A stretch of 51,672 nucleotides of DNA from NCBI GenBank assembly GCA_017443805.1, contig JAFSXY010000128.1:1-51672 (forward strand). The letters run 5' to 3'. Of this stretch, positions 44,427-51,672 are shown one piece after another. Position 1 is the first letter of the stretch. Every line of letters starts with the position of its first letter. This DNA comes from Clostridia bacterium (lineage in GTDB: Bacteria; Bacillota; Clostridia; Oscillospirales; Acutalibacteraceae). The position numbers were made by a program, and so were the translations under genes. Under the pieces are notes generated by a model. It saw only the letters and a program-made list of their open reading frames with translations, did not search any database and was not told the DNA's origin.

Positions 44427-46832
44427 ATGGCTTACGATTTTAAGACCGCTGAAGCGAAGTGGCAAAAAAAATGGGAAGAATCCGGCGTTTTCCACGCGCT
44501 TGACAAATCCCCGAAAGAAAAATTTTACGCCCTGGTGGAATTTCCCTACCCCAGCGGCGCAGGCATGCACGTGGGACATATCAAGGCCTATTCCGGCTTG
44601 GAGGTCGTGAGCCGGAAACGCCGCAAGCAGGGCTATAACGTACTGTTCCCCATCGGCTTCGACGCTTACGGTCTGCCCACCGAGAACTACGCGATCAAGA
44701 CGGGCATCCACCCGCGGGCCGTTACCGACAACAACATCGCGAAATTCACGGGACAGCTGCAGAGAGTCGGCTTTTCCTTTGACTGGAGCCGCGTGATCGA
44801 CACCACGCAGGAGGACTACTACAAGTGGACACAGTGGATCTTTCTGAAAATGTTTGAACACGGGCTCGCCTTCCGCGACAAAACGCTTGTAAACTACTGC
44901 CCGTCCTGCAAGGTCGTACTCTCCAACGAGGACAGCCAGGGCGGCAAGTGCGACATCTGCCATTCCGACATCATCCAAAAATCAAAGGACGTCTGGTACC
45001 TGCGCATTACGGCGTACGCCGACAAGCTGCTGGAGGGACTGGACACGGTGGATTATCTGCCCAACATCCGGCTGCAGCAGGAAAACTGGATCGGCCGTTC
45101 CACGGGCGCCTTTGTGAATTTTGCCGTAAAAGACACAGAAGAAAAGCTGCGTATTTACACGACGCGGCCGGATACGCTGTTCGGCGTCACCTTTATGGTC
45201 ATGGCGCCCGAACACCCGCTGCTGGACAAATATAAAGACCGTATCCGCAACTTTGCGGAGGTGGAAGCCTACCGCGCCGCCAGCGCGAAAAAGACCGAAT
45301 TTGAGCGCACGCAGCTTGTCAAGGACAAAACGGGCGTAAAGCTTGACGGTTTTACGGCCGTCAACCCCGTCAACGGACAGGAGATCCCCGTTTTCATCTC
45401 CGATTACGTGATGATGGGCTACGGCACGGGCGCCATTATGGCGGTGCCCGCCCACGACCAGCGCGACTATGAATTTGCGAAAAAATTCGGCGTGGATATC
45501 ATTGAGGTCATTCGCGGCGGCGACATGGAAAAAGAAGCCTATACCGGCGACGGCGAGATGATCAATTCCGGCTTTTTAAACGGGCTGACCAACAAAAAAG
45601 AGAGCATTGCCGCCGCGATCCGCTATCTGGAAGAACGCGGCCTCGGAGAAAAAGGCGTGCAGTACAAAATGAAGGACTGGGCATTTAACCGCCAGCGCTA
45701 CTGGGGCGAACCCATCCCGATCGTCTACTGTGACGACTGCGGTATGGTGGCGGTCCCCTACGACGAGCTGCCGCTGCGTCTGCCGAAGGTGGAAAACTTC
45801 GCGCCCGGCTCCGACGGCGAAAGCCCCCTTGCCAAGATCCCGGAATTTGTCAACTGCACCTGCCCGAAATGCGGGAAGGCCGCGCGCAGAGAAACGGACA
45901 CAATGCCGCAGTGGGCCGGCTCCAGCTGGTATTTCCTTCGCTATATCGATCCGCACAACAACGCGGTTTTTGCCGACCGGGACAAACTGAACTACTGGGG
46001 CATGGTCGACTGGTACAACGGCGGTATGGAGCACGTTACGCGCCATATGATCTATTCCCGCTTCTGGCATAAGTTCCTTTACGATCTGGGCGAGGTGCCC
46101 TATGCGGAGCCGTACGCCAAGCGCACCGCGCAAGGCCTGATCTTAGGGCCGGACGGCGAAAAAATGAGCAAATCCAAGGGCAACGTAGTGGATCCCAACG
46201 ACGTTGTGGACGCGCTCGGCGCGGACGTATTGCGCACCTACGTCCTGTTTATGGGCGATTACGAAAAAGCGGCGCCGTGGAGCGAAAACAGCGTAAAGGG
46301 CTGCAAACGCTTTATTGACCGCGTATGGGGCCTTTGCGATATCCTGACGCCGGGCGAGGGCTACTCCAAAGAACTGGAAAGCGCCTTCCACAAAACGATC
46401 AAAAAGGTTTCGGAAGACATTGAAAACCTGAAATACAACACCGCCATCGCGGCGCTGATGACGCTGCTTAATCAGATCTACGACAAAGGCAGCATCACCG
46501 AAGCGGAATTGTTTACGTTTATTTCGCTGCTCAATCCCTTTGCGCCGCACATAACGGAGGAAATGAACGAAAAACTCGGGAAGTCCGAGCTGCAGGCCGT
46601 TTCCGCGTGGCCCGTTTACGACGAAGCCAAATGTGTGGACGAGACCATCGAGCTTGCCGTACAGATCAACGGCAAGGTCCGCGCGCGGATCACCGTCGCC
46701 GCCGACTGCGACGACACAACCGCCATCGCGGCCGCAAAAGAACATCCGGACGTTCAAAATATGATCGCGGGTAAAACCGTGGTCAAGGAGCTGTACGTCA
46801 GGGGCAGACTTGTAAATATCGTTGTAAAATAA
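44427..46832 (+). CDS. leuS: Leucyl-tRNA synthetase
   Basis: An 801-residue class I synthetase of bacterial length. The HIGH-type motif is YPSGAGMHVGHIKAY near residue 40, the CP1 editing domain includes TTRPDTLFGVTFMVMAPEHP and VPAHDQRDYEFAKKFG, and the KMSKS motif is GEKMSKSKGNVVDPND near 575. The anticodon-binding domain and the short C-terminal lid follow. GAGGTAGA stands before the ATG. The sulfatase-like gene starts 16 bases downstream, so the peptide locus may also be read from the leuS promoter. Confidence 0.98.
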   Translation: MAYDFKTAEAKWQKKWEESGVFHALDKSPKEKFYALVEFPYPSGAGMHVGHIKAYSGLEVVSRKRRKQGYNVLFPIGFDAYGLPTENYAIKTGIHPRAVTDNNIAKFTGQLQRVGFSFDWSRVIDTTQEDYYKWTQWIFLKMFEHGLAFRDKTLVNYCPSCKVVLSNEDSQGGKCDICHSDIIQKSKDVWYLRITAYADKLLEGLDTVDYLPNIRLQQENWIGRSTGAFVNFAVKDTEEKLRIYTTRPDTLFGVTFMVMAPEHPLLDKYKDRIRNFAEVEAYRAASAKKTEFERTQLVKDKTGVKLDGFTAVNPVNGQEIPVFISDYVMMGYGTGAIMAVPAHDQRDYEFAKKFGVDIIEVIRGGDMEKEAYTGDGEMINSGFLNGLTNKKESIAAAIRYLEERGLGEKGVQYKMKDWAFNRQRYWGEPIPIVYCDDCGMVAVPYDELPLRLPKVENFAPGSDGESPLAKIPEFVNCTCPKCGKAARRETDTMPQWAGSSWYFLRYIDPHNNAVFADRDKLNYWGMVDWYNGGMEHVTRHMIYSRFWHKFLYDLGEVPYAEPYAKRTAQGLILGPDGEKMSKSKGNVVDPNDVVDALGADVLRTYVLFMGDYEKAAPWSENSVKGCKRFIDRVWGLCDILTPGEGYSKELESAFHKTIKKVSEDIENLKYNTAIAALMTLLNQIYDKGSITEAELFTFISLLNPFAPHITEEMNEKLGKSELQAVSAWPVYDEAKCVDETIELAVQINGKVRARITVAADCDDTTAIAAAKEHPDVQNMIAGKTVVKELYVRGRLVNIVVK

Positions 46833-46848
46833 CTAGCCAACAGAAGCA

Positions 46849-48282
46849 ATGACAGAGAACAAACCCAATCTTATCTATCTTTTTGCCGACCAGCTTCAGC
46901 TGAAAGCGCTCGGATACGCAGGCAACGCGCTTGCGAAAACAACCTTTCTGGACGCGCTGGCAGCAATCAGCGTGAATATGCCCAACGCCTGTTCCGGCCA
47001 TCCCCTGGGCGGGCCGTACAGAGCTTCCCTGTTCACAGGGAAATACTCCACCTCCACCGGCATGGTCATGAACGCGCTGCGTATTGCGCCGGTCCACCGT
47101 ACCTTTGCGCACATTTTGCATGACAACGGTTACGAAACGGCGTTTATCGGCAAGTGGAACATGTATTCCGCAAAGCTCGGCCGCAGCCACGCTGTGCGGG
47201 ACTCCTTTATCCCGGCGGACGAGAACCGTCTGGGCTTTGACGACTTTTTCGCCGCGTACGATTACCATCACTACTATTACGCGCCGGCGGCGTATTACCA
47301 CACCGACAGCAGCGAAAAGCGGTTCGCGCGCGGCTATGAACCGGATTTTCAGACCGATCTTGCCATAGAAAAACTCCGGGAATACGCGGACAAAAAACAG
47401 CCGTTTGCCATGTTTGTCTCTTTCGGCACGCCGCACGATCCGTGGACGAAGGAAAACGTGCCTGCAAAATATTACGATCTGTTCCGCGACACGGATTTCC
47501 CGCTGCCGGAAAACTACAGCCCGAAAAACGACCCGCACGCCGACGCATGGGGCCGTATGAACAAAAAAGAACGCGCCATGCTGCCGGAGTGGCAGCGCTG
47601 CTATGCCGCCATGACCGCGAACCTCAGCGATAACGTCGGCCGCCTGTATGAGGCGCTCAAACAGACTGGACTTGCGGACGATACGATCTTTGTTTTTACC
47701 TCCGACCACGGCGAGATGTTCGGCGCGCACGGCAGGCGTGAAAAAAACATTTTTTACGATGAAGCCGTAAACGTGCCATTTTTGATCCGGTACGGCGACA
47801 GGCTGCCCGCCGGCGTAAATTTGACGCCCCTGAATACGGTGGACATCCTGCCGACTCTTATGTCGCTGATGAACATGAAAGAGGACGCCTGCTTTGAGGG
47901 AAAAGATCTTTCCGAAGCGATCAGAAACGGCAAGCAGGCAGACAACGCCTGCCTGCTGATGGGGACCGGCCCCACCGCCGTTTGGGGCGCAAACCGGGAA
48001 TGGCGCGGCTTACGGAACGACCGGTTCACCTACGCAGTCTACCGCGCCGACAGCGAAGAATTCCTGTTTGACAATATCGAAGATCCGCTGCAGATGCACA
48101 ATCTGGCGTCGGAGCCGGACTGCAAACCGCAGCTGCGCGAGCTGAAAAACAAACTGTTTGCCGAAATGGCCCTGATCGGCGACGATTTTGAACCGAACGT
48201 CTTTTATAAAAAGAACTGGATCACACGCAGGATGATCAGACCGGTCCTTCCGAAACGGAAGGATCCCGGCGCAAAAAGGTGA
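46849..48282 (+). CDS. Sulfatase-fold protein without the formylglycine cysteine
   Basis: A 477-residue cytoplasmic member of the sulfatase/alkaline phosphatase superfamily. Metal and fold motifs remain: FADQLQLKALGY at the start, FTSDHGEMFGAHGRREKN, and YDEAVNVPFLIRYG. But the signature CxPxR, which carries the Cys or Ser made into formylglycine, reads GGPYR (Gly54-Arg58) in an otherwise normal PYRASLFTGKYS context, and GKWH reads GKWN. It therefore cannot work as a normal sulfatase; it may be a pseudoenzyme or use another nucleophile. The stop overlaps the ribosome site of the radical SAM gene, four bases before its start, so it seems part of the peptide locus. Confidence 0.88.
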   Translation: MTENKPNLIYLFADQLQLKALGYAGNALAKTTFLDALAAISVNMPNACSGHPLGGPYRASLFTGKYSTSTGMVMNALRIAPVHRTFAHILHDNGYETAFIGKWNMYSAKLGRSHAVRDSFIPADENRLGFDDFFAAYDYHHYYYAPAAYYHTDSSEKRFARGYEPDFQTDLAIEKLREYADKKQPFAMFVSFGTPHDPWTKENVPAKYYDLFRDTDFPLPENYSPKNDPHADAWGRMNKKERAMLPEWQRCYAAMTANLSDNVGRLYEALKQTGLADDTIFVFTSDHGEMFGAHGRREKNIFYDEAVNVPFLIRYGDRLPAGVNLTPLNTVDILPTLMSLMNMKEDACFEGKDLSEAIRNGKQADNACLLMGTGPTAVWGANREWRGLRNDRFTYAVYRADSEEFLFDNIEDPLQMHNLASEPDCKPQLRELKNKLFAEMALIGDDFEPNVFYKKNWITRRMIRPVLPKRKDPGAKR

Positions 48283-48286
48283 GAAA

Positions 48287-49873
48287 ATGGACGAAAAATA
48301 TCCGCTTTTTACGCTGCTGATTGAAATCACGAAAAAATGCAACGCCGCCTGCGACCAGTGCGGCAGCCGCTGCGATATCCACAGCGAGGAACTGCTCTCC
48401 AAGGAACAGATCCTTGCCGCGCTGCGGGATATCCGCGACAATATCGGCACGTATACCATGCTCAACATCTCCGGCGGAGAACCGCTGATGCGCCGCGATC
48501 TGTTTGAGATCATGCAGGAAGCGACCGCCATGGGCTTTGACTGGGGCATGGTGACCAACGGTTCGCTGATCACGGACAAAACCATTGAGGAAATGCGGAA
48601 AAGCGGCATGAAGACCATTACGGTCAGCGTAGACGGTCTGCGGGAAACGCACGATTCCCTGCGCCATCTGCCGGGCAGCTGGGACCATATCCTCGAAGCG
48701 CTGAAAAAGCTGAAAAAAGCGGCGTTTCTCGATCACCTGCAGGTCACGTTTACCGCAAACCGGCGCAACGTTTACGAGTTTGAAGAGCTGTACCGCATTC
48801 TGAGCCCCATCGGGCTGGATTCCATCCGCGTCAGCTTTATGGACCCGATCGGCCGCGCGCTGGATAATACCGACCTGCTGCTTACGCGGGAAGAGATCCT
48901 GTATATCACAGACCTTGCGAACAGGATCAACGCCCACCCGCGCAACACGCGCATCGAGTGGGGCTGCCCGCACTTTTTGGGGAAACAGCTGAACAACCGG
49001 CGTTTTCTGTGTTTTGCGGGCATTTATACAGCCTCCGTTTTATATAACGGCGACATTTTCGTTTGCCCGAACGTCCCGCACAGGAAAGAGCTTATTCAGG
49101 GAAACATTCTGACCGACAGCATCAGCGAAACCTGGAAAAACGGTTTTACGTATTTCCGGAACCGTCCGCTGCCGTCCAAATGCGGGGACTGCAACTATCG
49201 GAACGTCTGCAAAGGTGATTCCCTGCATACGCTTGATTTTGATACCAACGAGCCGCTGTTCTGTTACCGGGATTATTTGGAGCAGCCGCCGATACAAACC
49301 TATAAGGACGCGCTTTTTGCAAGATATCCGGACGTATCTTTTTACGAGATCTCCGGCGGTGAGCCCGACGCGGATGAGATCATCATTGAACCGGACGCCT
49401 TTTTGTCGATCCGCCAGTATTTCCATCTCGGCAGAAAGAATCCGCAGTCGATGTATGAACAACAGATGGCGCTTATCGGTTTTTCCGCCTGCAAAACGAG
49501 CGTGGTGCGGTACGTGATTCCCTGCGACGGCGCCCTGCGGGCGGAGGATAACGCAATTTTTTCAGGAAAAATCCTGAAAACTGTTGACAACGAGCTGGAA
49601 ATCATTAATAATAATTATTACAGGAGTGATGACCGCGTACTATGCGGCAGCGAGTGCAATAATAAAGACCCGATGAAATTTCTCGGCTTTATTCACAGCC
49701 ATCCCACGCAGAGTGAACTGCAGTATTCAACAGGCGACGACAGGATCCACGCCCGTATGCTGCATAAATTCGGCGCTTACTTCGGCATTCTTGTGCACCC
49801 CGCAAGCGGCGCCATGGGCGCTTACTACGGCAAAGAGCTTCGGCAGGCAAAGCTTGTCATACCGGAGTTATGA
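48287..49873 (+). CDS. Radical SAM/SPASM enzyme fused to a C-terminal JAMM (MPN+) metalloprotease domain
   Basis: A 528-residue protein. Residues ~8-230 are a radical SAM domain: ITKKCNAACDQC gives cluster cysteines 18, 22 and 25, followed by NISGGEPLMRRD. Residues ~240-330 are a SPASM domain: C242-x12-G-x4-C260 and C299-x2-C302-x5-C308, then C326; the next expected cysteine of the CX3C pair is Ser312. Residues ~385-528 look like a JAMM zinc peptidase with Glu391 and the motif HSHPTQSELQYSTGDD (His470, His472, Ser481, Asp484). The chain would couple peptide modification and cleavage. Directly downstream are three small peptide genes. I know of no described enzyme with this fusion. Confidence 0.9.
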   Translation: MDEKYPLFTLLIEITKKCNAACDQCGSRCDIHSEELLSKEQILAALRDIRDNIGTYTMLNISGGEPLMRRDLFEIMQEATAMGFDWGMVTNGSLITDKTIEEMRKSGMKTITVSVDGLRETHDSLRHLPGSWDHILEALKKLKKAAFLDHLQVTFTANRRNVYEFEELYRILSPIGLDSIRVSFMDPIGRALDNTDLLLTREEILYITDLANRINAHPRNTRIEWGCPHFLGKQLNNRRFLCFAGIYTASVLYNGDIFVCPNVPHRKELIQGNILTDSISETWKNGFTYFRNRPLPSKCGDCNYRNVCKGDSLHTLDFDTNEPLFCYRDYLEQPPIQTYKDALFARYPDVSFYEISGGEPDADEIIIEPDAFLSIRQYFHLGRKNPQSMYEQQMALIGFSACKTSVVRYVIPCDGALRAEDNAIFSGKILKTVDNELEIINNNYYRSDDRVLCGSECNNKDPMKFLGFIHSHPTQSELQYSTGDDRIHARMLHKFGAYFGILVHPASGAMGAYYGKELRQAKLVIPEL

Positions 49874-49893
49874 TAAAAAAGGAGATGTTTTTC

Positions 49894-50091
49894 ATGCGCG
49901 ATTTCTTTTTAAGAGTCTTCGATGCAATAAAGGCTTTTTTCCAAAGGATTTTCCATATCCGTACGCAGCAGCAAGCAGTCGAGATCCCCGAAGAAAACAA
50001 TTCCGTGGATTTTCCCGTCGTATGCTATTACGGCTGCCCCAACAGCAATAAAGCGAAAAAACTGCAGCTGAGCAAAAAGCTGTACAGATAG
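49894..50091 (+). CDS. Candidate modified-peptide precursor 1 (65 residues)
   Basis: Starts at ATG 49894, nine bases after AAGGAG; an earlier in-frame ATG overlaps the upstream stop, but the two sister peptides begin at the same MR(D/E/A)FF point. An amphipathic basic/aromatic N-terminus (MRDFFLRVFDAIKAFFQRIF) is followed by a variable linker of about 20 residues, longest of the three, then VCYYGCPNSNKAKKLQLSKK and LYR. The end is nearly identical in all three copies. It fits a leader-plus-core precursor of the adjacent radical SAM/JAMM protein. Alternatively the N-terminal helix is the active, membrane-binding part. Confidence 0.85.
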   Translation: MRDFFLRVFDAIKAFFQRIFHIRTQQQAVEIPEENNSVDFPVVCYYGCPNSNKAKKLQLSKKLYR

Positions 50092-50116
50092 ATAAAAAAA
50101 AACGGAGGTGTTTAAC

Positions 50117-50260
50117 ATGCGTGAGTTTTTTATCCGCGTTTGGGAATGGATCAAACGCGTGTTCCACATCAAGTCCAAAAACGACGTCGTTTGTTATTAC
50201 GGCTGTCCCAACAGCAACAAAGCAGCAAAACTGCAGCTGAGCAAAACGTTGTACAGATAA
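50117..50260 (+). CDS. Candidate modified-peptide precursor 2 (47 residues)
   Basis: Starts at ATG 50117 behind CGGAGGTG. The protein opens MREFFIRVWEWIKRVFHIKS and closes VVCYYGCPNSNKAAKLQLSK-TLYR, with almost no linker (KND). The tail DNA differs from copy 1 mostly at third positions, so the three genes arose by tandem duplication and the tail is under selection. It has two cysteines, as in copy 1. Confidence 0.85.
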   Translation: MREFFIRVWEWIKRVFHIKSKNDVVCYYGCPNSNKAAKLQLSKTLYR

Positions 50261-50282
50261 CGCGTTTCGGGAGGTGTATTCC

Positions 50283-50441
50283 ATGCGCGCGTTTTTTGCC
50301 CGTATATGGGCGTGGATCAAAAAAGTACTGCATATCAAATCCAAACAGGACAACGATCCCGGTGAAATTGTGGACTATTACGGCTGCCCCAACAGCAACA
50401 AAGCAAAAAAACTGCAGCTGAGCAAAAACATCTACAGATAA
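50283..50441 (+). CDS. Candidate modified-peptide precursor 3 (52 residues)
   Basis: Starts at ATG 50283 behind GGGAGGTG. It opens MRAFFARIWAWIKKVLHIKS, has a short acidic linker (QDNDPGEI) and ends VDYYGCPNSNKAKKLQLSKN-IYR. The first cysteine of the other copies is Asp here, so only the GCPN cysteine is invariant. The terminator follows seven bases later, closing the locus. Confidence 0.85.
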   Translation: MRAFFARIWAWIKKVLHIKSKQDNDPGEIVDYYGCPNSNKAKKLQLSKNIYR

Positions 50442-50447
50442 AAAGTC

Positions 50448-50478
50448 TGCGCGGCGTTAAAAGCCGCGCACTTTTTTT
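50448..50478 (+). terminator. Terminator of the peptide operon
   Basis: TGCGCGGC (50448-50455), a seven-base loop and GCCGCGCA (50463-50470), then a seven-T run. Confidence 0.85.
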
Positions 50479-50481
50479 GCA

Positions 50482-50514
50482 AAAAAAAATCCTGCCCTTA
50501 CGGACAGGAATTTT
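50482..50514 (-). terminator. Terminator of tuf
   Basis: TCCTG (50490-50494) and CAGGA (50505-50509) with two inner G-C pairs; the minus strand continues into a run of nine T, 12 bases after the tuf stop. Confidence 0.75.
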
Positions 50515-50525
50515 TTGTTTGAAGA

Positions 50526-51672
50526 TCAGTCTTCGTTGATGGCGATAACAACGCCGGAACCAACGGTACGGCCGCCTTCACGGATAGCGAAGCGAAGACC
50601 TTTTTCGATAGCGATGGGGGTGATCAGCTCAACGTCCATATCAACGTTGTCGCCGGGCATGCACATCTCAGTGCCTTCGGGCAGGGAGATAACGCCGGTC
50701 ACGTCGGTGGTTCTGAAATAGAACTGCGGACGATAGTTGTTGAAGAAGGGCGTATGTCTGCCGCCTTCATCCTTGGTCAGAACGTAAACCTGACCGGTGA
50801 ACTTGGTGTGAGGATGAATGCTGCCGGGCTTAGCAAGAACCTGACCTCTTTCGATCTCGGTTCTCTGCACGCCACGAAGCAGGCAGCCGATGTTGTCGCC
50901 GGCCTCGGCATAGTCGAGGATCTTGCGGAACATTTCGATACCGGTCACAACGACCTTTCTCTTCTCATCGGTCAGACCAACGATCTCAACTTCTTCGCCG
51001 GTCTTCAGCTGGCCTCTTTCCACTCTGCCGGTGGCAACGGTACCACGACCGGTGATCGTGAACACGTCTTCTACGGGCATCAGGAAGGGCATGTCGGCCT
51101 TACGGTCGGGCGTGGGGATATAGGAGTCAACAGCGTCCATCAGTTCCCAGATGCAGGCGATCTCGGGAGCGTTCACGTCGCCGCCGTCATATTCCAGAGC
51201 CTTCAGAGCAGAACCCTTGATGATGGGGGTCTCGTCGCCGGGGAATTCATACTCGTCGAGCGTCTCACGGACTTCCATCTCAACCAGTTCGATGAGCTCT
51301 TCGTCATCGACCTGATCGCACTTGTTCAGGAAAACGATGATATAGGGCACGCCTACCTGACGGGCAAGCAGAAGGTGCTCTTTGGTCTGCGCCATGGGGC
51401 CGTCGGTCGCGGCGATAACCAGGATCGCGCCGTCCATCTGCGCAGCACCGGTGATCATGTTCTTGATATAGTCGGCATGGCCGGGGCAGTCAACGTGCGC
51501 ATAGTGACGGCTTTCCGTCTCATATTCCACGTGCGCGGTGTTGATCGTGATACCACGGGCTCTCTCTTCGGGAGCTTTATCGATGTTGGCGTAATCAACG
51601 AAATCCGCCTCGCCCTTCATAGCGAGAGTCTTGGTGATGGCAGCGGTAAGCGTGGTCTTGCCGTGGTCAACG
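50526..51672 (-). CDS. tuf: Elongation factor Tu (5' end outside window)
   Basis: The open frame runs to the window edge and gives about 381 residues; only some 15-20 N-terminal residues are missing. G-domain motifs are VDHGKTTL (P-loop end), [30 protein letters not shown] and GSALKALE; domains II and III follow with [15 protein letters not shown] and the C-terminal [10 protein letters not shown]. The GTPase delivers aminoacyl-tRNA to the ribosome. Codon choice is visibly more biased than that of its neighbours, as expected for a highly expressed gene. Confidence 0.98.

Follow-up and report, generated by a model that had tools for sequence, protein, structure and literature searches.

A stretch of 51,672 nucleotides from a Clostridia bacterium (contig JAFSXY010000128.1, positions 1 to 51,672; hereafter the window) encoded a radical S-adenosylmethionine (SAM)/SPASM enzyme fused to a putative JAMM zinc protease domain and followed by three short peptide genes. 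The locus is best explained as a minimal peptide-maturation cassette, with one bifunctional enzyme and its putative membrane-anchored substrates. We propose that the enzyme is splicease-like and would excise tyramine at a Tyr-Gly pair to leave an alpha-ketoamide, with its JAMM domain removing or gripping the basic C-terminal tail of the peptides. From sequence comparison, we give this reading a probability of roughly 0.42. An earlier note on the window had suggested that modification and proteolysis were combined in one chain, and this logic was sustained by the intact catalytic residues and by repeated substrate-like peptides that recurred with the enzyme in other genomes. The elements of the locus were as follows.

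48287..49873, + strand: radical SAM/SPASM-JAMM fusion enzyme, an open reading frame (ORF) of 528 amino acids (aa), with radical SAM at residues ~10-210, SPASM at ~225-330 and JAMM at ~335-528
48338..48361, + strand: CX3CX2C cluster motif C18-C22-C25 (CNAACDQC), from the alignment of homologues
49010..49264, + strand: SPASM cysteines C242, C260, C299, C302, C308 and C326, from Pfam and alignment
49457..49459, + strand: codon of the predicted JAMM catalytic residue Glu391, within SMYEQQMALIGF, from alignment
49694..49738, + strand: JAMM H470-x-H472-x8-S481-x2-D484 (HSHPTQSELQYSTGD), from alignment
49894..50091, + strand: peptide 1, 65 aa, with a hydrophobic/basic N-terminal stretch, a linker and CYYGCPNSNKAKKLQLSKKLYR; an in-frame ATG also at 49870
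50117..50260, + strand: peptide 2, 47 aa, with the tail CYYGCPNSNKAAKLQLSKTLYR; an in-frame GTG also at 50108
50283..50441, + strand: peptide 3, 52 aa, with the tail DYYGCPNSNKAKKLQLSKNIYR; an in-frame GTG also at 50274
50440..50485, + strand: intrinsic terminator hairpin with a T run, -18.8 kcal/mol, z -2.4

The radical SAM/SPASM part

Within the ORF at 48287-49873, the residues named by the earlier note (C18/C22/C25, E391, H470, H472, S481 and D484) were all found at the positions claimed. A domain search had been expected to return radical SAM, SPASM and JAB/MPN; the first two exceeded the Pfam cut-offs (Radical_SAM at residues 12-155, 4e-23; SPASM at residues 242-303, 1.2e-7), and Prok-JAB and JAB fell below theirs. 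Conservation was assessed in an alignment (A2) of 31 homologous enzymes with identities to the window enzyme down to 49%, from which L045, with an internal deletion, was excluded. CX3CX2C was present in 30 of the 31 rows, and in the 31st, the insertion-bearing enzyme of L056, it was recognised by reading the upstream sequence. The SPASM-type cysteine set that had been claimed proved sound, with C227 and the pattern C242-x12-G-x4-C260, C299-x2-C302-x5-C308, C326 invariant in 31/31. The usual SPASM pattern has an additional Cys after the position matching C308, and here that place was held by Ser312, likewise invariant in A2. Ser312 aside, the window enzyme carried both features by which radical SAM/SPASM maturases are recognised, CX3CX2C and the SPASM cysteines.

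Two homologues differed in length. The Oribacterium enzyme (L056:5700-7752) was interrupted by two insertions: the first follows CX3CX2C, and the second, made up of successive AQIxQIDRDAQI-like repeats, separates the radical SAM part from the SPASM part. In the L045 enzyme (L045:5983-7500), 25 residues were absent right after GGEP, through either a genuine deletion or an assembly error.

The C-terminal domain

The JAMM assignment was drawn from family evidence, because the window enzyme's own Prok-JAB match lay below the Pfam cut-off. The Glu, two His, Ser and Asp of the JAMM/MPN+ motif were all present, the stretch from H470 to D484 reading H470-S-H472-x8-S481-x2-D484 in the window enzyme, and E391, H470, H472, S481 and D484 were invariant in 31/31 aligned homologues (A2), in line with the expectation that they would be kept across the family. 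Among the 17 sequences of a C-terminal profile (A3), 12 matched Prok-JAB at E up to 1 (best 0.0033) and 8 matched JAB. A comparison of A3 with PDB at E up to 10 returned 14 distinct sequences, all of them AMSH, AMSH-like/Sst2 or STAM-binding JAMM proteases (best E 0.04), and the three alignments shown were aligned on the HxHPTQ motif. Alignment of the C-terminal profile with five Prok-JAB domains from related genomes by hhalign gave an E of 4e-5 and a probability of 69%, with the motif aligned. An affinity with RadC-type JAB domains was rejected, as hhalign with eight of these gave no real match, unlike Prok-JAB. We take the C-terminal domain as JAMM, with a reserve on the His-to-Ser spacing.

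Its E ... HxH(P) ... SxxD motif is common to the AMSH/STAMBP JAMM deubiquitinases and the bacterial Prok-JAB proteases, and in alignment the HPTQ stretch is common to the fusion and the AMSH-like protease Sst2. Unlike in these proteins, the JAMM part is here joined to radical SAM/SPASM, it would act on a short peptide tail and not on ubiquitin, and there is one additional residue between the second His and Ser.

A family of tail-bearing peptides

The ATGs of the window peptides (49894, 50117 and 50283) lay 20, 25 and 22 bases beyond the preceding stop, and in each gap 5 or 6 bases matched a Shine-Dalgarno sequence. This agrees with the earlier description of three peptide genes at gaps of 20-25 bases ahead of a terminator, the hairpin at 50440-50485. 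None of the three peptides matched a leader family in Pfam and NCBIfam scans, and Rfam gave nothing above its gathering scores over 46700-50540.

We collected 59 distinct tail-bearing peptides, with the tail consensus YYGCPNSxKxxKLxL, from the window, from 31 contig loci and from six others. Because (Y/H/F)YG(C/A)PxS was itself the search pattern, agreement at its positions is built in; elsewhere, Leu stood twelve residues past the first aromatic in 59/59 peptides and Lys immediately before that Leu in 48/59. YYG, HYG or FYG, each an instance of the XYG substrate motif, occurred in the 59 peptides, YG being demanded by the search. At the start chosen by script, which was wrong for at least three of the 59, a Shine-Dalgarno match of at least 4 bases was found for 56/59, and with 59 distinct peptides and 56 such matches we judge that the tail-bearing peptide genes are not a product of chance. 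The ratio of nonsynonymous to synonymous differences (pN/pS) of the tail codons was 0.28 over 1711 pairs. The search itself dictated several tail residues, which pulls this figure down, and pS, at 0.69, was near saturation.

One to six peptides adjoined each enzyme where peptides were found, up- or downstream depending on the member but staying adjacent. Their predicted N-termini are hydrophobic and often amphipathic: the moment z exceeded 1.5 in 28 of 51 non-lipoprotein N-termini, and was 1.9, 1.1 and 0.5 for the three window peptides. The peptides of L046-L049 and L052 were lipobox-bearing lipoproteins that lay for the most part upstream of the enzyme, those of L056 were also lipoproteins and that of L051 had a transmembrane segment; lipoprotein tail-bearers were present in several early-branching members. 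Eight of the 59 peptides were flagged as lipoproteins by the script and 11 were counted by eye, the script undercounting because it chose late starts for some peptides. A cut near the HIKSK/linker region, as the earlier note had it, is not favoured, as this region was variable, lipoprotein signals took its place elsewhere, and the stretch linked to JAMM was the C-terminal tail.

A full YYGCPNSNKTAKLQTSRKELL tail was also seen at L089:1458-1523 (- strand; genome G289, contig C39), in frame directly past the TGA of an apparent multi-pass membrane protein. The TGA occupies the position of the Cys that precedes YYG in other tails, and could mark a decayed tail or a recoded TGA.

Co-occurrence of the tail and the JAMM domain

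The tail motif adjoined 31/33 JAMM-bearing enzymes vs 0/35 JAMM-less relatives. At those 31 of the 33 JAMM loci, a candidate precursor gene was adjacent to and conserved with the modifying enzyme, as is asked of a ribosomally synthesized and post-translationally modified peptide (RiPP). Homologues did not consistently lack the peptides, the outcome that would have told against the earlier note; only L050 and L065 were without the tail motif. Some peptides lay upstream. In the family sample the tail DNA pattern was found in 5/250 genomes, all five among the six with a JAMM enzyme, and in the genus sample in 7/26 genomes, all among the 8 with a JAMM enzyme. Mean net charge over the 20 residues after YGxP was +5.6 in 57 JAMM-system tails vs -3.0 in 36 JAMM-less ORFs.

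The peptides might instead be free-standing membrane peptides beside the enzyme by accident. In G022 and G123, both fragmented genomes, tail-bearing peptides occurred also on contigs other than the enzyme's, where action in trans is possible. However, every genome with the tail was a genome with the JAMM enzyme in both samples, and the peptides change side of the enzyme between members yet remain adjacent, which makes an incidental neighbourhood highly improbable.

The association of tail and JAMM would also suit a JAMM domain that recognises the basic tail for the radical SAM part without cutting it, or that acts elsewhere, and such a role would be compatible with splicing. Its Pfam scores below cut-off, and the failure of BLAST to find a conserved recognition partner or leader in the loci, fit a binding module. 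Against this, the five zinc/catalytic residues are invariant in 31/31 homologues while other parts of the domain vary, which suggests retained catalysis, and we consider a purely binding or unrelated role rather unlikely.

At L065 the partner was a 210-residue zinc-ribbon-like protein (L065:3077-3706, - strand; DZR match in Pfam at E 0.005, below cut-off) with a YGCP motif at its end. Zinc-ribbon-like partners were also seen at the JAMM-less loci L070-L072, with IYGP(M/R)P, and soluble substrates may be another type.

A YGxP motif beside JAMM-less relatives

Beside JAMM-less enzymes lay, in most cases, small lipoproteins or membrane proteins in which (V/L/I)YGPP (e.g. LYGPPEIF, VYGPPEYF) occurred one to five times. 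YGPP was found at 26/32 JAMM-less loci vs 0/20 control loci, the latter comprising seven other radical SAM loci of the window's own genome and 13 Prok-JAB loci, and the looser YG.P at 28/32 vs 5/20. The six JAMM-less loci without YGPP had IYGP(M/R)P (L070-L072), YGVP (L074), YGSP (L076) or AYG only (L075). At the three TIGR04133 plasmid loci examined, an adjoining lipoprotein carried YGSP (Parabacteroides), YGTP (Phocaeicola) or YGMP (Treponema) shortly after the lipobox. Of these, the YGSP and YGMP lipoproteins (L058 and L060) were scanned, and both exceeded the cut-off of TIGR04134, the 'radical SAM-associated putative lipoprotein' model, as did the YGPP lipoprotein of L088. The motif Cys was replaced by Ala (YYGAP) in 3/59 peptides, one of the two in L046 and both in L056. 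Because YYGAP peptides and YGPP partners exist beside YYGCP, X-Y-G-x-P appears to be a substrate motif common to nearly the whole enzyme group.

These variants also bear on whether the radical SAM part cross-links the motif Cys, as a thioether or C-C macrocycle at YYGC, with JAMM trimming the product. SPASM enzymes often form such links, Cys occupied the motif position in 56/59 peptides, and a second Cys frequently preceded YYG. Yet the YYGAP peptides and the JAMM-less relatives with YGPP, YGVP or YGSP have no Cys there, and the chemically known neighbour in our trees is, provided that PlpX belongs to TIGR04103, a splicease and not a thioether enzyme. We regard a Cys cross-link as unlikely. 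Thioether or other Cys chemistry, which the earlier note had taken as the defining step, is unlikely to be so because YYGAP paralogues and relatives with YGPP, YGSP, YGTP or YGMP lack that Cys.

For the first 330 residues of the window enzyme, the top NCBIfam model was TIGR04133 'rSAM_w_lipo', at 227 bits vs a cut-off of 425, short of the membership threshold. TIGR04133 enzymes, whose function is unassigned, share with the fusion a partner with YGxP (a lipoprotein at 3/3 plasmid loci), but have no JAMM domain, and the two partners scanned were, unlike the window peptides, larger lipoproteins with carboxypeptidase-regulatory-like similarity and no basic tail. By these comparisons, the system represents a JAMM-fused form of a radical SAM/lipoprotein group already partly modelled by NCBI (TIGR04133/TIGR04134). 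The phrase 'candidate new RiPP class' was too strong for a JAMM-fused branch of a group that includes these families and is joined in trees to TIGR04103/TIGR03913. The novelty claimed for the fusion itself fared better, as no account of it was found in the literature searched, which excluded key splicease papers, Morinaka 2018 (Science) and Scott 2022 (Chem) among them, some of which may cover YGxP lipoproteins. A review of RiPP leader proteases names neither JAMM nor JAB (PMC10885120), and a paper in which JAMM, radical SAM and RiPP all occur concerns MftG in mycofactocin use (PMC11778925).

Relationship to spliceases

At the YG of XYG, PlpXY removes the equivalent of a tyramine and joins the chain up again (PMC10533398, PMC11002830), and the splice tags tested with it include GGPIRPLYGLPI and GAVAAGYGVVFPG (PMC10533398). 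PlpX was shown to act jointly with PlpY, a recognition protein, on precursors whose leaders are of the Nif11 or nitrile-hydratase-like kind (PMC11002830). On a Nostoc plasmid, an enzyme of TIGR04103, the nif11-class maturase 3 family, adjoins a Nif11 precursor ending in ALYGLPPELF, which is close to the YG(L)PPExF of several JAMM-less partners.

In a first tree of 42 rows, 29 enzymes of the TIGR04133, YGPP and JAMM kinds grouped with five of TIGR04103/TIGR03913 type (97/93), to the exclusion of eight outsiders (PqqE, MftC, NirJ, two TIGR04053, TIGR04347 and two unassigned SPASM proteins). A second tree of 36 rows, without PqqE and the two long-branch unassigned rows, grouped 21 of the former with five of the latter (99/97), to the exclusion of ten outsiders (two AhbD-type, three NirJ2, NirJ, two TIGR04053, TIGR04347 and MftC). 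The fusion group and the PlpXY spliceotide systems have in common radical SAM/SPASM, the XYG motif and neighbouring clades in the trees, with PlpX taken as a TIGR04103 member, and are probably relatives. Unlike PlpXY, the fusion system has a JAMM domain and apparently membrane-anchored substrates, with no such partner or leader found.

Some other modification of Tyr or Gly at X-Y-G-x-P, such as oxidation, epimerisation or a Tyr cross-link, could take the place of tyramine excision. The TIGR04133 model is typed 'hypoth_equivalog', the group lies beside and not inside TIGR04103, and the AhbD, NirJ2 and TIGR04053 models score the window enzyme slightly higher than TIGR04103 does, all of which would accommodate a different chemistry. 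However, X-Y-G-x-P is shared with the TIGR04103 precursor, where it comes close to the YG(L)PPExF of the JAMM-less partners, and we think another modification fairly improbable.

At TIGR03913-type loci, one of two (L124:1787-1999) and one of three (L122:2196-2366) DUF1843 precursors carried PYGPAM or PYGAGI, which may be an XYG motif, close to the N-terminus; the other three did not.

Distribution and evolution of the fusion

Among the window's own and related genomes (98), a full-length enzyme of 70-78% identity was found in seven beyond the window's own. A scan of genome contigs gave 32 loci, 31 of which extended into the JAMM part, with titles naming Clostridia, Clostridiales, Clostridiaceae, Ruminococcaceae, Lachnospiraceae or Oribacterium. 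Rumen or omasum was named in 13 of the 32 titles, and 11 more carried RUG codes, which we take to denote rumen genomes. The family sample held the full enzyme in 6/250 genomes, including G297 (L065) at only 41% identity, and the class sample of 391 genomes held 15 further matches (E up to 1e-75), every one ending before the JAMM part. L057, whose contig stops after residue 94, was excluded from all counts.

In a tree of 61 radical SAM/SPASM domains, one branch set all 27 JAMM-bearing rows apart from the rest (100/93), which fits a single gain of JAMM. Left out of this tree were ten rows that were near-duplicates or odd, L045 and L056 included, and also L088, for which one pattern-based scan found no ORF. 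An origin of the enzyme from a phage, plasmid or virus was rejected: one scan of viral contigs found no relative, two phage records matched over 56% of the query only, and no plasmid record covered 80% of the query (6 matches at E 1e-20; at 1e-7, among 60 matches listed of 234).

Proposed mechanism

We put the chance that the radical SAM half removes tyramine at the YG of YYGCP, leaving an alpha-ketoamide, at about even. Our view of the JAMM part as an active zinc protease that grips the basic C-terminal tail and cuts at or beside the motif is tentative, with the balance tilted slightly against it. The tail would serve as a 'follower', standing in for the leader and the recognition partner, and the failure to detect a PlpY-like partner fits the tail and JAMM domain having replaced it. 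JAMM enzymes are known to cleave after a C-terminal Gly, and a cut after the Gly of the motif, between Gly and Cys, would fit this habit, possibly yielding a membrane-tethered peptide with the ketoamide near its end. The product would stay on the membrane because different members have, at the N-terminus, a lipoprotein signal, a transmembrane segment or a hydrophobic stretch that is often amphipathic. The proposed role of JAMM has a parallel in bottromycin. PurAH/BotAH are amidohydrolases of different chemistry, unlike JAMM, and are not fused to a modifying enzyme. As zinc hydrolases, they remove a C-terminal follower (PMC10885120).

A fuller version, which we hold to be distinctly improbable, is a self-contained splicease-protease in which tyramine excision and hydrolysis of the Gly-Cys bond by JAMM would leave the cell displaying a membrane-tethered peptide whose end, an alpha-ketoacyl-glycine, serves as a warhead or metal ligand. 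On the same view, the TIGR04133/TIGR04134 and YGPP lipoprotein systems of gut bacteria would be surface proteins that carry backbone beta-amino ketoamides.

Several points weigh against tyramine excision coupled to a JAMM protease. The spacing from the second JAMM His to Ser is x8, vs x7 in most Prok-JAB rows seen here, and the window enzyme stays below the Pfam cut-offs for both Prok-JAB (PF14464; E 0.06, 15.9 of 25 bits) and JAB (PF01398; E 0.13, 15.7 of 22.5 bits). JAMM appears to have been gained once, so that the counts that join it to the tail describe one evolutionary event and not independent support. L050/G004 has a JAMM enzyme, and the peptide search there found none; at L065, whose JAMM enzyme branches first, the adjacent zinc-ribbon-like protein ends in another tail (YGCPNPNSINYDDI...). 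The TIGR04133, AhbD, NirJ2 and TIGR04053 models all outscore TIGR04103 on the window enzyme, for which the latter is the fifth-best NCBIfam model, at 113.7 of the 725 bits required. Both trees that join the group to TIGR04103/TIGR03913 are unrooted, use hand-picked rows and carry long-branch and odd-composition warnings. Membership of PlpX in TIGR04103 presumes that IPR026482 (the number in PMC11002830) is that model. XYG is a short motif, L075 is without any YGxP, and the published PlpA-type tag GAVAAGYGVVFPG is without P at the same place (PMC10533398). No PlpY-like partner, Nif11 or nitrile-hydratase leader was found by BLAST of flanking ORFs and scans of the window peptides, a search that a very divergent partner would escape.

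Neighbouring genes

Upstream of the enzyme, a sulfatase-family gene (46849-48282, + strand; Pfam 7.7e-46) ends four bases ahead of the enzyme's ATG. The sulfatase active-site motif is C/S-x-P-x-R, and the corresponding stretch here is GGPYRAS, in which the formylglycine Cys/Ser is apparently Gly. BLAST clustering of the flanking ORFs of at least 90 aa (273 from 32 loci) gave no cluster in more than 5 loci, and among 469 small ORFs preceded by a Shine-Dalgarno match beside the enzymes, no cluster, peptides apart, occurred in more than 3 loci. Because no neighbour cluster recurs in more than 5 of the 32 loci, we consider the sulfatase-like gene local to the window.

Implications

The proposed reading would tie TIGR04133/TIGR04134 and the clostridial YGPP proteins to spliceotide chemistry through one common motif and two trees, and the JAMM fusion would add what looks like a built-in follower protease. 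It predicts a mass change of about -135.07 Da at YG, together with zinc-dependent loss of the tail. If true, the fusion would be a route to unusual protein modification, combining backbone rewriting with the trimming of membrane-anchored peptides in gut bacteria.

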